Part shown: positions 2,451-18,935 of the stretch, one piece after another | Numbering within the stretch: position 1 is the first letter of the stretch | How the letters are laid out: each line of letters starts with the position of its first letter | Source of the DNA: Bacteroidia bacterium | Lineage (GTDB): Bacteria > Bacteroidota > Bacteroidia > 2-12-FULL-35-15 | Assembly: GCA_030654175.1 (NCBI GenBank) | Contig: JAURXZ010000008.1 | Location: 303,426 to 367,425 of the forward strand | Direction: 5' to 3' | Length of the DNA stretch: 64,000 nt | The notes under the pieces: model-generated | Databases searched by the model: none | The model's input: the letters and a program-made list of their open reading frames with translations, nothing else | Told to the model about the DNA's origin: nothing | Translations under genes and position numbers: made by a program

Positions 2451-2542
2451 CGTCATTGCTAGGGAGCTTTAACGACTGAAGCAATCTCATTTTTTGAAAT
2501 ATGATTGCTTCAACATGCCCCAAAGCATGATTCGCAATGACG
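2451..2542. repeat. Interspersed palindromic repeat (CGTCATTG type), imperfect
   Basis: Inverted arms CGTCATTG (2451-2458) and CAATGACG (2535-2542) enclose a second pair, GAAGCAATCTCAT and ATGATTGCTTC. A better preserved relative is at 61057-61130. It sits in the 515-base gap 2303-2817, which otherwise holds only AT-rich sequence and the promoter box of the next gene. Confidence 0.75.
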
Positions 2543-2787
2543 CTGATAATTATCATTCCGTTAAAAGAATTTATTCTTTAATTTAGCCTAAGTACATACA
2601 ATCTATTCTGGATTTCCCTTTTGCTCTGAAAGGCCAATCTTAGCCCTGTTTTTTTTGATATCCCTCCATTTTTTTGTGTTTTTTTCCTGATCTCATTTTG
2701 GTACAATGGCTAATGAATGTTTTAAAACTATCGCTGAAATAGAATAAAAACATGCCAAATTATGTTAAAAATATAATTTAATATTTA

Positions 2788-2795
2788 TACATTTG
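2788..2795 (+). promoter_or_regulatory. Candidate -7 box TACATTTG
   Basis: Matches the Bacteroidota -7 consensus TAnnTTTG, 22 bases upstream of the ATG at 2818. No clear TTTG -33 box is seen. Confidence 0.5.
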
Positions 2796-2817
2796 CCATA
2801 ATCTAATATTAGCCATT

Positions 2818-5800
2818 ATGAAAAAAACACTACTTGTTTTAATTTTTATAGCACTATTTACGCTGCATTTTAAAAATGCTTATGCGCAACCTTCTAATGA
2901 TCCCTGCGCTAGTGCTATTTCTTTAACATCTTCTACTACCTGTAATTACACCATTGTCTCAGTTTCTGCCGCCACACAGTCAATAGCTGCAATAACATGT
3001 GGGGGAACAGGAACAGCCGATGATGATGTATGGTATAAATTTACTGCGCAAGCAACGAGCCATACCATTAAGGTTCAGGGTTATGGATCCTATGATGCTG
3101 TTATTGACGTTAGATCCGGCTCTTGTATGGGAACTAATATTGCATGTATAGATGCAACTTTAGCTGCTGGGTTAGAAACATTAACAGTTCCTGGGCTAAC
3201 AATTGGGTCAACATATTTGATCAGAGTTTACCATTATGGTATAGGCGAAGGTGGCGGACAGTTTGATATTTGCGTTACACATGTTGCACCATCAGGTCCT
3301 CCTAATGATTTTTGTGATAACAGTTATATTATAAGTTTAACATCTTCTCTTTCTTGCACTTACCAAACCGGTTCTACGTTTGGTGCAACTCAAACAATGG
3401 CTGGTACCTGCGTTGGTACCGGTGATGATGATGTGTGGTACCGATTTGTTGCACAATCAAATACGCATACTGTTAAAGTACAAGGTTATGGTGGCTTCGA
3501 TCCTGTTATTGACATTAGAAATGCTCCTGCATGTACTGCAAGCAATATGCAGTGTGTGGATAACAGTGCTGCTAATGGTCTGGAAACTGCAAATCTTACC
3601 AGTTTAGTAATTGGCGCAACTTATGTGGTGCGTGTTTACCACTTCGGTACAGGTAATGGAGGCGGAGATTTTGATATTTGCGTTTCTCATACGGCCCCTT
3701 CCGGGCCTCCAAATGACATTTGTTCTGATGCTATCTCTTTATCTTCCTCACTTACATGTAGTTATGTGACAGGTTCTACTTTAAATGCCACACAGTCTAT
3801 TACCGGCACTTGTACTGGTACCGGAGATGATGATGTATGGTATAGTTTTATAGCTCAGGCAACAAGCCACACTGTTAAGGTGCAAGGCGCTGGTGCCTTT
3901 GATGCCATTATCGACATCAGATCAAATTCTTCTTGTTCAGGAACTAACATTATGTGCGTGGATGCAAGCGGGGCAGCAGGATTGGAAACAGCAAATTTAA
4001 CAAGCTTAACAATAGGTACTACTTACCTGGTAAGAGTTTACCATTATGGAGCAGGTGATGGAGGCGGTAGTTTCCAGATCTGTGTTACACATACACCACC
4101 GGCAGGTCCTCCTAACGATCTTTGTTCAAATGTTATATCTTTATCATCCGCTCTTACTTGTAATTATACTTCCGGTTCTACAACCGGTGCTACACAATCT
4201 GTAACAGGTACATGTACTGGTACCGGAGATGATGATGTATGGTATTCTTTCACCGCTGTTGCTACCTCTCATACTGTTAAGGTTCAGGGAGGTACAGGTT
4301 TTGATGCGGTTATTGATCTGAGATCGAGTTCGTCCTGTTCCGGGACCAATATCTCTTGTACAGATGCTACCGGAGCCGCGGGATTAGAAACTGCTGTTCT
4401 TACAAGTTTAACTGTTGGTTCAACCTACCTGGTAAGGGTTTATCATTTCAGTGCAGGTGCCGGAGGAGGTAATTTCCAGATATGTGTTACTCACACAGTT
4501 CCTGCTGCTCCTGCAAATGATCTTTGCTCAGCCGACATCTCTTTAACATCAGCTCTTACTTGTACTTATACAAGTGGTTCCACTACAGGAGCTACACAGT
4601 CAATTCCAGGTACATGTGTTGGTACAGGAGATGATGATGTATGGTATTCCTTTACCGCATTAGCTACAAGCCATACTGTTAAGGTTCAAAGTGGTGCAGG
4701 TTTTGATGCTGTTATCGATGTTCGTACCGGAACTTCTTGTTCTGGCGACAATATAGCTTGTTCCGACATTAGTGGAAGTGCAGGTTTAGAAACAGCAAAC
4801 TTAACGGGCTTAACCGTTGGGTCTCTTTACCTGGTTCGTGTTTATCACTTTAGTGCCGGTGCAGGAACCGGTAGTTTCCAGATCTGTGTTACTCATACAG
4901 CAACTGCTTGTACTTATGCCATCGCTCCAACCAGTCTCTCCTTTACATCTGCTGCAGGAACTGGAACTGTTAATGTGACTGCCGCAAGTGGTTGTAGCTG
5001 GACTGCAACTTCAAATGATAGTTGGATAACGGTAACATCTGGTAGTACAGGTACCGGAAACGGATCTGTAACGTATTCTGTATCAGCTAATACGGGTACA
5101 GCGCAACGTACAGGTACAATTACAATAGCTGGCGTAACATACACCGTTGCTCAAAGCGGAAATACAACCTGTACATTTACAATTGCTCCTCTTAATCAAT
5201 CATTGCCAAACACAGCTGGTACAGGAACTGTAACGGTTACTGCAGCAGCAGGATGTGGTTGGGCTGCAACTTCAAATGATGCATGGATAACTGTAACAAC
5301 AGGAAGCACAGGCTCAGGAAATGGTACAGTAACCTATTCTATCACTGCTAATACTGGTACAGCACAGAGAGTAGGAACAATAACTATTGCCGGACAAATA
5401 CATACCGTTACTCAAAGTGGTATTACACCTTGCTCGTATGCTATTTCTCCATTAACCTTATCTTACTCATCTTCTGGTGGCCTGGGATCGGTTAACGTTA
5501 CTGCTGCTGCCGGATGTACCTGGACTGCAACATCTAATAATCCTTGGATAACCATCACTTCCGGTAGTACTGGATCAGGTAATGGAACAGTAAATTATAC
5601 AGTTGCTGCCAACACCGGAACTACTCAGCTTACAGGTACAATAACTGTGGCAGGTCAAACGCATACTGTTACTGAAAGCGGTATCAATTGTACTTATTCC
5701 ATTGCTCCAACAGCGTTATCTTTCACTTCAATAGCCGGAACCGGAACAGTGAACGTTACAGCTGCAATTGGATGTGCCTGGACAGCTACCTCCAATGATG

Positions 5801-9386: not shown

Positions 9387-9470
9387 TACTCGTTCTTTTA
9401 ATTCATCTGCGAAAGCAGAATTCTAAAACAAACTGATCTTACTGTTTTTTATGTAAAATTATTGTTTTTA

Positions 9471-9573
9471 ACTTATCAAGAAAGGTGGAGGGACTAGCCC
9501 TATGAAACCTTAGCAACCTTCCACATTGGAAAGGTGCTAAATCCTGTCCTCAGCAATGTTGGAACAGATAAGT
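9471..9573 (+). promoter_or_regulatory. SAM-I (S-box) riboswitch aptamer
   Basis: The region matches the S-box core: AAGAAAGGTGGAGGGACTAG, then CCCTATGAAACC, TTAGCAACC, and a P3 hairpin with AAGGTGCTAAATCC. The P1 stem is visible as ACTTATC (9471-9477) with GATAAGT (9567-9573). SAM-I aptamers bind S-adenosylmethionine and switch off methionine genes. Here the first downstream genes are a methyltransferase and metH, which fits. Assignment rests on the sequence core and P1 pairing. Confidence 0.93.
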
Positions 9574-9614
9574 CAGAGTAAATTTTTTGAAAAAATAAAT
9601 CAAAATAATTCTAT

Positions 9615-10553: not shown

Positions 10554-10610
10554 ACCTCACCCCGTCCTCTCGGACACCCCTCTCCAATTGGAGAGGGGAA
10601 GGGGTGAGGT
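10554..10610. repeat. Palindromic interspersed repeat (CCTCACCCC type) upstream of metH
   Basis: Outer arms ACCTCACCCC (10554-10563) and GGGGTGAGGT (10601-10610) enclose an inner hairpin CCCCTCTCC-AATT-GGAGAGGGG. The element fills nearly the whole 72-base gap between the methyltransferase stop and the metH start. Its 3' arm holds the only SD-like bases (TGAGGT) ahead of metH. Confidence 0.85.
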
Positions 10611-10620
10611 CAGCGAAATT

Positions 10621-13600
10621 ATGACAGACATTAGAAAAGAATTAGAAAAACGAGTTTTAGTAATTGATGGTGCAATGGGCACCATGATCCAGCAATACAA
10701 TCTTGAAGAAAAAGATTATCGCGGAAAACGCTTTGCCGATTTTCATAAAGATCTGAAAGGCAATAACGACTTGCTTTCCATCACTCAACCACATATTATA
10801 AAAGCCATCCATAAAGAATATTTGAAGGCTGGCGCTGATATAATCGAAACCAATACATTTAGCGGAACTACTATTGGTATGGCCGATTACGACATGCAGG
10901 ATCTGGCGTATGAGTTAAATTACGAATCCGCTAAAATTGCGAAAGAGGCGATACAGGAGTTCTATAAAGAGTTTCCGGAGTTTGCTTCTATTCCAAAATT
11001 TGTTGCCGGTGCGATAGGGCCCACTAACCGTACACTTTCATTATCACCAAATGTAAATGATCCCGGCTTTCGTGCTGTTACGTTTGATGAAATGGTAGTT
11101 GCCTATACCGAACAGGTAAAAGGATTGATAGATGGTGGTGCTGACCTGTTATTGATTGAAACTATTTTTGATACGCTCAATGCAAAAGCGGCCTTATTCG
11201 CCATTCAAAATTATTGCGAAAAGATAGACAGGAAAATGCCGATAATGGTTTCAGGTACTATCACTGATGCCAGTGGAAGAACATTATCAGGACAAACTAC
11301 AGAAGCATTTTTAAATTCTGTTTCGCATGTGGATCTTTTAAGTGTTGGCTTGAACTGTGCGCTGGGAGCAAAGGACATGCGTCCTTACCTGGAAGAGCTT
11401 TCTTCCAAATCATCTTTTTATGTGAGTGCTTACCCTAATGCAGGATTGCCAAATCAGTTCGGAGAATATGATGAAGATGCTCACACCATGGGACATCAGA
11501 TCGAAGATTTTTTACAGGCAGGATTTATAAATATTGTTGGTGGTTGTTGTGGAACAACTCCTGCTCACATTCAGCGTATTGCTGAATTAGCAAAGTTGGC
11601 CACACCACGTAAAAGGCCAAAAGCCGATACATTGATGCACCTGAGCGGATTAGAGCCTTTTACGCTTACTCCGGAAAGTAATTTTATAAATGTTGGCGAG
11701 CGTACAAATGTTACGGGCTCAAAAAAATTCCTTCGTTTGATCAATGAAGGAAATTACGAAGAAGCCCTTTCTATTGCAAAAGATCAGGTGGATGGTGGCG
11801 CCCAGGTGATCGATGTGAACATGGATGAAGGGATGTTGGATGGCGAAGCAGCCATGACAAAGTTCTTAAATCTGATCGCTGCAGAACCGGATATCTCCAG
11901 GGTGCCTATCATGATAGACTCGTCTAAATGGAGCGTAATTGAAGCAGGTTTAAAATGTGTACAGGGGAAAGCAATTGTAAATTCTATTTCTTTGAAAGAA
12001 GGGGAAGAAAAATTTATTGAATGTGCTCATAAAGTAAAACAATATGGTGCTGCTGTAATTGTGATGGCATTTGATGAAACAGGACAAGCGGATACCTTAC
12101 AACGAAGAAAAGATATTTGTAAACGTGCCTATGATATTTTAGTGGACAAGGTAGGTTTCCCGCCACAGGATATTATTTTCGATCCCAATATTTTTCCGGT
12201 TGCAACCGGAATGGAAGAGCATCGTTTGAATGCACTTGATTTTTTTAACTCTACAAAATGGATCAAAGAAAATTTACCGTATGCAAAAGTAAGTGGAGGC
12301 GTAAGTAATGTTTCTTTTTCTTTCCGTGGTAATGATCATGTGCGTGAAGCCATACATGGTGCATTTTTATACCATGCAGTAAAAGCAGGAATGGATATGG
12401 GCATCGTAAACCCTGCGCAATTGCAGGTGTATGACGATATCGATAAAAAATTACTGGAGCTTGTTGAAGATGTGTTATTGAACAGGAGAGACGATGCCAC
12501 CGAACGATTGGTGGATCATGCCGAATCATTAAAAGGCATTACCAAGGAAAAAACAGAGAAAGATGAAGCATGGCGTAAAGGCACTGTTGAAGAACGTTTA
12601 AGCTATGCCTTGGTAAAAGGTTTGGTTGAACATATTGATGTGGATACGGAAGAAGCACGATTAAAGCTTGGCCGTCCTTTACACGTTATTGAAGGTCCTT
12701 TGATGGATGGAATGAATGTGGTGGGTGATCTATTCGGAAGTGGAAAAATGTTTTTACCACAAGTGGTGAAAAGCGCACGTGTGATGAAAAAAGCCGTTGC
12801 ATACTTAGAACCTTATCTGCAAGCCGAAAAGGAAGCAAATAAATTAGCCGGTATTGTTGGTGATGGCCGACAAAATGCTGGAAAGATACTAATGGCAACT
12901 GTTAAGGGCGATGTGCATGATATTGGAAAAAACATTGTTGGTGTAGTATTAGCTTGTAACAATTACGAGATCATCGATTTAGGCGTAATGGTTTCTGCAG
13001 ATAAAATTTTGGAAGAAGCAAAAAAACAAAATGTAGATATCATTGGTTTAAGTGGCTTGATAACACCATCACTTGATGAGATGGTACACGTTGCAAAAGA
13101 AATGGAACGCTTAGGCTTTAAAACGCCTTTGCTGATAGGTGGTGCTACCACTTCAAAAGTACATACTGCTGTGAAGGTCGCTCAACATTATTCAGGGCCG
13201 GTGGTGCATGTGAATGATGCCAGTAAATCGGTACCTGTTGCGAGTAGTTTAATTTCAAATGAATTGCGTGATGCCTTCATGATCGAAGTGACGAAAGATT
13301 ACGACAGGGTGCGGGAACAAAATAAAAATGCACAATCACAGAATAAATTTATTTCGATTGAAGAGGCCCGTGCAAATAGATTTCCGATCGACTGGAATAA
13401 AACAGAAATTGTAAAACCAACATTTATCGGTAACAAAGTATTTGATAATTATCCATTAGCAGAGCTTGTTGAATTCATCGACTGGACACCTTTTTTCATC
13501 TCCTGGGAAATGAAAGGATCCTATCCTAAAATTTTGAAAGACCCTACCCGTGGGGAAGAAGCGAGTAAGTTATTTGCCGATGCACAAAAAATGCTTAAAA

Positions 13601-14325
13601 AGATCATTGATGAAAAATGGTTGACAGCAAATGCAGTTATTGGTATTTATCCTGCAAATGCAGTAGGGGATGATATACAACTCACAACAGAAGCAGGAAA
13701 CGTGATGTTTCATACCTTACGCCAACAAACAAAAAAACCTGCAGGGCAATACAATATAGCATTGTCGGATTTTATTTTACCAAAATCCGAAATCCAAAAT
13801 CCAAAATCTTCTTCTGATTATATTGGGCTCTTCGCACTATCAACAGGTTTCGGAATTGATGAACATGTGGCTCGTTTTGAGGCTGACCATGATGATTATT
13901 CTGCAATTATGTTAAAAGCATTAGCAGATAGGTTGGCAGAAGCATTTGCAGAAGTGATGCACAAAAAAGTGCGTAAAGAATTCTGGGGATATGCAAAAGC
14001 AGAGGATCTGAAAAATGAGGATCTGATAAAAGAAGAATATGCCGGTATTCGCCCGGCTCCCGGTTATCCTGCACAACCCGACCATACCGAAAAACCAACT
14101 ATCTGGAAATTACTGGATGTAGAAAAAAACACAGGAATGATCCTGACAGAAAGTATGGCTATGTTTCCAACTGCCGCTGTGAGTGGTTTATACTTTGCTC
14201 ATCCACAATCACATTATTTTGGAATAGGTAAAATAAAACAAGACCAGGTGGAAGAGTATGCGAAACGAAAAGGGATTACACTAGAAGAAACAGAACGCTG
14301 GCTTGGTCCTAATTTGGCTTATTGA
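10621..14325 (+). CDS. metH: Cobalamin-dependent methionine synthase
   Basis: A full-length 1235-residue MetH, close to the E. coli length, that methylates homocysteine from methyltetrahydrofolate through cobalamin. Domains in order: homocysteine-binding barrel with zinc cysteines in GLNCALGA (~245) and GGCCGTT (~308-309); pterin-binding domain ([12 protein letters not shown] to ~650); cobalamin cap and binding domain with DVHDIGKN (~763-770, the lower-axial His); and a C-terminal SAM-binding reactivation domain with [12 protein letters not shown]. An in-frame tract near residues 1053-1063 ([11 protein letters not shown]) looks derived from a short DNA repeat. The ATG at 10621 is chosen because upstream codons lie within the 10554-10610 palindrome. 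It is under the SAM-I riboswitch. Confidence 0.97.
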
Positions 14326-16850: not shown

Positions 16851-16995
16851 AGTACTATATCATGTGTTAACGAAATGTGTTTATAGACTTTTAGACTACG
16901 GTGTTTTGAATTTAAAATAAATAAGTTTTCATTTACGACTGTGTTTTTTTACAAACTATGTATTGCGATCGCTATTTAAAGGAAATAAGAAACAA

Positions 16996-17126
16996 CCAAC
17001 CGCTAACATTGGTTATGCAATAAGCTGGCATTTTAGTACATTTAGTGTGCGTCTTTTTAAGTAAGCATTTGTCTCTGCGGACAAATACTTCTTCGTAAAT
17101 CCTCTAATCGCATAGCCGCTGGTTGG
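16996..17126. repeat. Second long hairpin flanking the FG-GAP gene
   Basis: Arms CCAACC...TATGCAATAAG (16996-17023) and CTAATCGCATA...GGTTGG (17104-17126) are inverted relatives of each other. The left arm contains ACCGCTAAC, the same motif that forms the outer arm of the 14369-14458 hairpin. The interior holds a smaller hairpin, TTGTC-TCTGCG-GACAA. It fills most of the 314-base gap before the ion-channel gene. Confidence 0.55.
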
Positions 17127-17164
17127 AACATCACTTAGCTAATAAAAAAAACAAAAACAAAAAA

Positions 17165-18121
17165 ATGAAAAAAATATTTGCTTTTTTTTTCTTAATTATT
17201 TTCTATTCTTCCTTCGCGAAAGCATCCGAGACTCCGGATACCGTTTCTGTAGGGGTTTATATTAACAGCATACATGATATTGATTTCGCGGATAAGCAAT
17301 ATACAATTAACCTTTGGTTATGGTTAAAATATAAAAACCCGGATTTTGATTTCTCTAAGTACCTGGAAGTACCAATGGCAAAAACTGTTGATAAATCGTT
17401 CTATACGGTAGATACATTAGATGATGGCAGAATATACATGTTGATGAAATTGCAATGTGTAATGAAGGATTCATGGAAAATACAAAACTTTCCTTTTGAC
17501 CGTCAGAAATTAAGATTTACAATAGAAAATTCACAATATGATAAAGATGATCTGCTTTTTGCGGAAGATACTGTTGGTAACCATTATTCGAAGTGGACCA
17601 CTTCAGGTTGGAAAGTAATTGCTGATAGCTTTAGAATTAGCACAGGCATAAAGAAATATGAGACCGCTTTTGGTGAGCCTGTTTTAACGAAACCAATTTC
17701 TGAATTCAGCAATTTTAAAGTTCAAATAGTGATAGAGCGGGATTCCTGGTGGTTGTTCATGAAGTTATTTATTGGAATGTATATTTCTTTCTTGTTGGCT
17801 TTTCTTTGCTTTTTTATCCATAGAGATAGTATCGACTCACGTTTTAGCTTAAGTGTAGGTGCCTTATTTGCTGCCATTGGAAATAAATATGTTGTGGATT
17901 CTTCGCTACCTGAATCCACCTCTTTTACTTTAGTGGATACACTGCATGGCCTTACCTTGTGTTTTATTTTTGTATCCGTTGCATGTTCTGCCTTTACATT
18001 GAGGCTTGTTAAAACAAACCGCATTGAGCAATCACAGCGATTTGATAAAAGGGCGTCCTATATTATGCTGGCGATCTATCTTATTTTAAATGGCTGGTTT
18101 ATTTATAAAGCGAATTATTAG
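17165..18121 (+). CDS. Pentameric ligand-gated ion channel (Cys-loop superfamily) homologue
   Basis: A 318-residue protein with the layout of bacterial pLGICs such as GLIC. It has a signal peptide (~1-20), then an extracellular beta-sandwich with the Pro-loop hallmark (W104 and FPFDRQ at 109-114; the loop cysteines are absent, as in bacterial members), then four membrane helices: M1 ~194-217, M2 ~226-246, M3 ~255-281, M4 ~299-315. Gapless comparison from memory with GLIC M2 places Asp224 at -2', Ser at 2', Phe at 9' and Asp at 19', ending in the shared LP turn. An acidic -2' ring suggests cation selectivity (inference). Ligand unknown. The start is the ATG opening MKKIFAFFF; the in-frame ATG at 17123 would place a basic stretch before the signal peptide. 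A YceI gene follows after 68 bases. Confidence 0.87.
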   Translation: MKKIFAFFFLIIFYSSFAKASETPDTVSVGVYINSIHDIDFADKQYTINLWLWLKYKNPDFDFSKYLEVPMAKTVDKSFYTVDTLDDGRIYMLMKLQCVMKDSWKIQNFPFDRQKLRFTIENSQYDKDDLLFAEDTVGNHYSKWTTSGWKVIADSFRISTGIKKYETAFGEPVLTKPISEFSNFKVQIVIERDSWWLFMKLFIGMYISFLLAFLCFFIHRDSIDSRFSLSVGALFAAIGNKYVVDSSLPESTSFTLVDTLHGLTLCFIFVSVACSAFTLRLVKTNRIEQSQRFDKRASYIMLAIYLILNGWFIYKANY

Positions 18122-18788: not shown

Positions 18789-18935
18789 AGCGAAAGCGCG
18801 TATTTAACTGTAATGCCGCGTTAGGGATTGCAACGTAAATCCTTCCTTGCCGCCAATAGGCGGTAAGGAAGATTGAAGTGTAAAGCCCGCCAATTCCTTT
18901 TAGAATTGGAACGCCCAAATGAACATCCTCTCCAA
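18789..18935. repeat. Probable interspersed repeat with two small hairpins
   Basis: Contains CTTCCTTGCCGCC (18842-18854) opposite GGCGGTAAGGAAG (18859-18871) with one mismatch, then a CCAATTC/GAATTGG hairpin near 18890-18910. G/C content is well above its surroundings. It lies between the YceI gene and the sensor gene and may also act as a terminator, though there is no T-run. Confidence 0.5.

Follow-up and report, generated by a model that had tools for sequence, protein, structure and literature searches.

Results

The pLGIC gene and its surroundings

At positions 17165..18121 on the forward strand of the window (the whole stretch of DNA analysed, 64,000 nucleotides) lies a gene for a pentameric ligand-gated ion channel (pLGIC) subunit, recognised from its open reading frame, Pfam, PDB alignment, an AlphaFold model and Foldseek. 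It starts with ATG at 17165, ends with TAG at 18119-18121 and has a product of 318 aa. On inspection alone the N-terminus resembles a signal peptide, probably residues 1-22 (17165..17230), where the model has a helix at 2-16, and the ligand-binding domain that follows (residues 23-192, mainly β strands in the model and matched by Pfam; 17231..17740) would thus be periplasmic. This domain holds the Pro-loop motif F109-P110-F111-D112 (17489..17500), whose P and D are present in 123 of 123 aligned rows, the loop B glutamate E121 (17525..17527), which aligns with the glutamate of LESF in the glycine receptor (GlyR), and at its end the pre-M1 arginine R192 (17738..17740), likewise present in 123/123 rows. 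Model and alignment then give the M1 helix (195-217; 17747..17815), with G204 in place of Pro at the usual kink, and the M2 pore helix (223-246; 17831..17902); M3 (256-283, with D258 and H261; 17930..18013) and M4 (287-317; 18023..18115) are taken from the model. M2 carries D224 at -2' (17834..17836), R0', F235 at 9', N240-K241-Y242 at 14'-16' (17882..17890) and D245 at 19' (17897..17899), with Gly at 6' and 13'.

The upstream neighbour encodes an FG-GAP protein with a T9SS sorting domain; downstream lie genes for YceI, a Reg_prop/SpoIIE protein and a MurNAc-6-P etherase. The downstream order recurs only in one close relative (92%; L002/L040), and an operon with YceI was rejected, since in the loci then compared YceI matches outside the own genome were confined to that relative. 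Across 80 loci (flanks of at most 5 kb, some loci shorter) no neighbouring ORF family of at least 120 aa occurs in more than 7, antisense ORFs aside; antisense ORFs, most of which lie over the channel gene itself, recur in 19 and 8 loci. With no widely recurrent neighbour, the channel probably acts alone. Two RNA elements were also recognised in the window, a Flavo-1 RNA (RF01705, 53 bits) at 18802-18896, 0.7 kb downstream of the channel gene, and a SAM riboswitch (RF00162, 87.8 bits) at 9470-9574, upstream of ORF 10588-14325, which we take from its sequence to encode a methionine synthase-like protein.

An imperfect inverted repeat (16993..17125) precedes the gene, with hairpin arms at 16993-17005/17113-17125 and 17063-17073/17080-17090, and the fold of 16985-17135 is modestly more stable than that of shuffled sequences (z -1.83; 9 of 200 shuffles as good). 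The own genome contains one further long copy of the 171-bp repeat stretch (127 nt, 76%) besides a single 24-nt match; of the other loci fetched from beyond that genome, L046 was the only one to match (61 nt). The original prediction had placed possible recombination hairpins beside the gene; the hairpins exist, but the low copy number and the single match elsewhere lend no support to a role in recombination. We found no evidence that the repeat mobilises the channel gene, to which it is probably unrelated.

Assignment to the pLGIC superfamily

The product had been proposed to be a Cys-loop-superfamily homologue on the strength of W104, the FPFD motif at 109-112 and four membrane helices; all of these are present, the helices as predictions of the model, and the Pfam, NCBIfam, Foldseek and modelling results agree with the assignment. 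The Pfam model Neur_chan_LBD was matched at 9e-9, with 35.5 bits against a cut-off of 26, and also in 25 of the 32 members of A2, a set of rows gathered by whole-protein similarity (E at most 1e-30; L009, which ends before M2, was dropped); the Pfam transmembrane model PF02932 was listed for 0 of these 32 at E 0.001. The NCBIfam models TIGR00860 (8.8e-19) and NF033918 (4.9e-14) gave matches under their curated cut-offs (LIC and LGIC_1, 67.6 of 280.2 bits and 52.4 of 500 bits). In a single-sequence search of the PDB, glycine receptors led (2.1e-8) and GLIC followed at about 1e-3 among the 60 of 164 matches listed, with M2 aligned to GlyR without gaps. When the 32-row profile was used instead, GLIC was matched over residues 24-311 at about 1e-18; among the 60 of 216 matches listed, the top one was a GLIC-GLRA1 chimera (3.1e-21), and the best prokaryotic relatives were GLIC entries. 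The gapless correspondence of M2 with GLIC, earlier drawn by eye, is reproduced in the profile alignment, and D224 at -2', Phe at 9' and the unusual Asn/Lys/Tyr at 14'-16', where GLIC has F-N-I, were all found as predicted.

The AlphaFold monomer (mean pLDDT 85.1, pTM 0.70) consists of a β-sandwich followed by helices at 195-217, 223-246, 256-283 and 287-317, the fold expected of the family. Its top Foldseek match was GlyR alpha2 (2.3e-21), and the top VIA-align match was GluCl (Z 25.1, rmsd 2.1 over 284 residues), with many rows tied within 1 Z. In the excerpted account of PMC4795631 the superfamily Pro-loop is [F/Y]PxD with an invariant Pro, a form taken here by F109-P110-F111-D112, and the pre-M1 arginine that partners the Pro-loop Asp is R192. 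An acid at the intracellular mouth of the pore (-2'/-1'), characteristic of cation-selective pLGICs, is provided by D224. The kink proline of M1, found in 77% of the superfamily (Gly in 5%) and so frequent rather than universal, is absent. Also absent are both cysteines of the Cys-loop, D102 and L116 standing opposite those of GlyR, which sets the protein apart from Cys-loop receptors proper. Sequence and model together identify the product of 17165..18121 as a pLGIC subunit, with its Pro-loop, pre-M1 Arg, β-sandwich and four helices, acidic -2', F9' and Y16'; the intact ORF and the strong family evidence rule out chance resemblance or a pseudogene.

An N-K-Y motif in M2 marks a subfamily

N240, K241 and Y242 are invariant in the A2 set (32/32 rows). 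In a wider alignment of 128 rows, obtained from 170 hits by merging duplicates and removing rows of <240 aa, the query included, N-K-Y occurs in 108 rows and is lacking in 20, 12 of which have Gln at 15'; the 108 are defined by the motif, so that K in 108/108 holds by construction. Since 70 of the 128 rows, and many of the 123 rows mentioned above, come from loci L040-L119, which were found by the patterns GNKY[IV][IV]DS and K[LMI]Fx[GC][MV]Y[VI][AS]F, positions 13'-20' and residues 200-209 are biased, and the counts given here compare the 38 NKY rows obtained independently of any pattern with the 20 others.

Several residues accompany the motif on this basis. The 19' acid is present in 38/38 pattern-free NKY rows and in 1/20 others, the latter count being alignment-dependent because some of those rows have an acid at 20'. 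Gly13' (37/38 against 1/20), M3 His261 (37/38 against 4/20), a Gly in place of the M1 kink Pro (33/38, the rest being C in 4 and V in 1, against 2/20) and a Trp in place of Tyr at residue 51 (36/38 against 2/20) are distributed similarly. R0', F9' and D258 are each found in 38/38 of the pattern-free NKY rows. Residue 121 is E in 36 of them and D in 2, and E in 20/20 of the others; residue 181, in loop C by the GlyR alignment, is aromatic in 36/38. The -2' position is D/E in 101 of the 108 NKY rows overall and in 33 of the 38 pattern-free ones, which would favour cations; the remaining five of the 38 have Gly (3) or a gap (2), so cation selectivity may not be universal in the group.

A tree of 58 rows was computed with the 70 pattern-found rows and columns 239-242 left out. 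N-K-Y, carried by 38 of the 58, requires 2 changes on this tree, against 16.9 for shuffled labels. Thirty-five NKY rows form one group (support 82/86), while two NKY rows and the Azospirillum B510 row are unplaced near the base; a single change of the trait is obtained in 6% of 200 bootstrap trees, and one origin of N-K-Y is possible. With so few changes of the trait, the linked residues, K15' and the 19' acid included, could reflect common descent. The search of relatives called for by the original prediction thus shows the M2 lysine to be conserved, and the idea that K15' is a private oddity of this protein was rejected on the A2 and tree results. Judged from these alignments, N-K-Y is a fixed mark of a Bacteroidota-centred pLGIC subfamily with G-N-K-Y at 13'-16' of M2.

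The superfamily itself has been known in Bacteroidota since Tasneem et al., whose excerpted text includes a simple-architecture version from Cytophaga hutchinsonii (PMC549065); what appears to be new is the subfamily with an invariant N-K-Y and a 19' acid. The passages available from Jaiteh et al. (PMC4795631) name M2 positions 0' and 9' and the Pro of the M2-M3 loop as conserved and do not, in those passages, mention a conserved 15'. Our literature search, which covered few subscription journals and was loose in part, returned no description of an invariant N-K-Y with a 19' acid.

Relatives and distribution

The gene is single-copy in its own genome. Matches were found in 9/59 genomes of relatives and in 35/395 genomes of the class, the own genome being counted in both and weak and non-NKY matches being among the 35, in line with the sporadic occurrence in bacteria that had been predicted. 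The profile matched 33/395 class genomes at 1e-6 and 24/395 phylum genomes at 0.001, some of these groups lacking N-K-Y. Scanning representative genomes of prokaryotes turned up 341 relatives, and the top 80 of these comprise 79 from Bacteroidota and 1 unplaced; 26 of these 80 are from Mucilaginibacter, and Mucilaginibacter, Chitinophaga and Niastella strains among them are cultured members. The scan used the GNKY pattern and is thus no test of motif conservation. Carriage by phage was rejected, with 0 matches in 50,697 phage records and no relative found in a single-protein scan of viral contigs.

Other architectures and groups were also encountered. One locus (L026:1411-2400 and 2487-3449) holds a tandem pair of GNKY pLGIC genes, and its genome (G342) has four matches in all, so that heteropentamers are possible there. 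In class relatives, two ORFs of ~750-790 aa (L034:1438-3810 and L035:1495-3750) have a C-terminal pLGIC without N-K-Y after a long N-terminal part. A second Bacteroidota pLGIC group (L134-L141) has mostly T at 6', L at 9' and L-Q-K or L-Q-Q at 14'-16', with Gln 15' in 7/8 rows. A PDB search with a non-NKY relative returned GLIC chimeras and animal receptors.

Ten plasmid records were matched (eight Azospirillum, two Streptomyces), all at <60% identity; M2 was read in 4 of the 10, and among those four only Azospirillum B510 has N-K-Y. On plasmid pAB510b of Azospirillum sp. B510 (L147:1779-4861) the gene for the GNKY-type pLGIC bears the annotation hypothetical and is followed immediately by genes annotated CheW and MCP four-helix bundle. 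This neighbourhood is in keeping with a chemotactic role, which was proposed earlier (PMC549065). It also speaks for the idea that the protein is a ligand sensor whose pLGIC fold binds or signals without ion flux, as does the unusual pore, with Gly at 6' and 13' and aromatic rings at 9' and 16'. Yet R0', F9', Y16' and, for the most part, D/E-2' have been kept across deep divergence, and no signalling partner is widely recurrent near the gene; we judge a non-conducting sensor highly improbable.

Orientation of K15'

Pore-facing positions of M2 were taken to be 2', 6', 9', 13', 16' and 20'. On a 100-degree helical wheel 15' lies at -140, 19' at -100, 14' at +120, 16' at -40 and 9' at -20 degrees. 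In the GLIC profile alignment K241 and D245 stand opposite Asn and Glu, which are N239 and E243 when counted from GLIC P247. These two GLIC residues are listed among those lining the inter-subunit cavity, which is described as partly exposed to membrane and pore, in the part of PMC3464191 available. According to passages in PMC4210246, M2-15' of the GABA-A beta subunit adjoins the inter-subunit anaesthetic site, ivermectin contacts 15' of GluCl, and ethanol and bromoform touch 15' in GLIC mutants; the same passages report that etomidate failed to protect a Cys at 15' and that anaesthetic photolabels were not detected at this position. Going by the wheel and these channels, K15' most likely faces away from the pore and lies in the inter-subunit cavity, with an acid one turn away. 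The original prediction had regarded a lysine facing or near the pore of a putatively cation-selective channel as odd. That orientation is probably wrong, given a 15' position about 140 degrees off the pore axis that borders or contacts the inter-subunit site in GABA-A, GluCl and GLIC, and a lysine in a cation pore largely ceases to be a puzzle. Through the part of the cavity that is open to the pore, K15' could still affect permeation; and GLIC, with Asn at 15', shows that a 19' acid exists without the lysine.

If K15' did line or influence the pore, the channel might pass anions or be non-selective, the -2' acid being overridden. The closest single-sequence PDB matches listed are anion-selective GlyRs, with M2 gapless; R0' is invariant in the pattern-free NKY rows; and M3 D258 aligns with a GlyR Asp that is called a feature of metazoan anionic channels in an excerpt of PMC4795631. 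Set against these are the acid at -2' in 33 of 38 pattern-free NKY rows, as in GLIC, the position of 15' on the wheel and the absence of the Pro-Ala-Arg found at the GlyR pore mouth, and we regard an anion-passing or non-selective channel as improbable.

Proposed mechanism

We consider it probable, with moderate confidence, that the protein forms a homopentameric inner-membrane cation channel with ELIC-like aromatic gates at 9' and 16', a glutamate-bearing binding site and a charged K15'/19' pair in the cavity. The ligand would be a small periplasmic molecule, in all likelihood an amine or amino acid, that binds between subunits at a site made up of the loop B Glu E121, the aromatic loop C residue F/Y181 and W51, which we infer to be the loop D Trp. 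Excerpts from the ELIC literature place the Glu131 of loop B next to the amine of the bound agonist (PMC3119659) and the gates at L9' and F16' (PMC12637682). E121 is presumably the counterpart of that glutamate. Binding of the ligand is proposed to shift M2 and open the aromatic rings F9' and Y16', which occupy the positions of the ELIC gates, so that cations could pass, selected by the D/E-2' ring.

As the ligand we would first guess an amine or amino acid, with protons or Ca2+ as the principal alternative. The pocket is not quite that of GlyR, whose Phe is replaced by Ser at residue 123, and the ligand may differ too. Gating by protons or by relief of Ca2+ block, as in GLIC or DeCLIC, is suggested by the GLIC entries that are the best prokaryotic PDB relatives of the profile (60 of 216 listed), by the conserved carboxylates and H261, and by the description of Ca2+ inhibition as common in the family in part of PMC9897478. 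The conserved loop B Glu and the aromatic loop C residue, as in amine and amino-acid receptors, argue weakly the other way; we hold gating by protons or Ca2+ to be rather unlikely, though of appreciable weight beside the amine-gated reading.

In the proposed amine-gated channel, K15' in the inter-subunit cavity would form a pair with the acid a turn higher at 19', and perhaps also with D258 and H261 of M3, which we infer to face upper M2. Such a charged latch would fill the cavity that anaesthetics use in animal channels and may couple gating to the subunit interface. In animal receptors this cavity is the pocket for anaesthetics, alcohols and ivermectin. We put forward more tentatively, as possible rather than probable, that GNKY-type channels are an ancient pLGIC subfamily in which the cavity is permanently filled by a Lys15'-Asp/Glu19' charge network, with the M3 Asp, acting as an internal modulator. 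Were this so, one would expect ELIC-like gating, natural insensitivity to drugs that bind in the cavity, and sensitivity once K15' is removed. GLIC and ELIC serve as structural models of the human receptors for anaesthetics and neurotransmitters, and a large group with cultured members and an invariant charge at the anaesthetic-binding place would offer a natural test of the cavity's part in gating, as well as a clue to the function of pLGICs in bacteria.

Comparison with known channels

The proton-gated GLIC of Gloeobacter shares with the 17165..18121 protein the fold, a similar length, a short M3-M4 link, the lack of Cys-loop cysteines and the acids at -2' and 19', and the two align along M2 without gaps in a profile match over residues 24-311. 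The proteins differ at 9' (Ile in GLIC, Phe here), at 14'-16' (F-N-I against N-K-Y) and at 24' (Lys against Glu), in the M1 kink, where the Pro of GLIC is replaced by Gly, and in the loop B Glu present here. ELIC, the amine/GABA-gated channel of Erwinia, shares the aromatic 16' gate, a bulky 9' gate and the loop B Glu, as judged from PMC12637682 and PMC3119659 and from positions deduced from them. On the same footing, its acid ring lies at -1' whereas that of the present protein is at -2', and the lysine at 15' is found here; Ser also stands here where ELIC has Phe133, the two being paired by spacing. The animal GlyRs, the closest single-sequence PDB matches listed (2.1e-8), align at the loop B Glu and loop C Phe positions and differ in having Pro at -2', Ala at -1', a disulphide-bonded Cys-loop, Ser at 15' and Arg at 19'. 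In simple architecture and occurrence in Bacteroidota, the protein resembles the prokaryotic ART-LGICs described in the excerpted text of Tasneem et al. (PMC549065), among them that of Cytophaga hutchinsonii.
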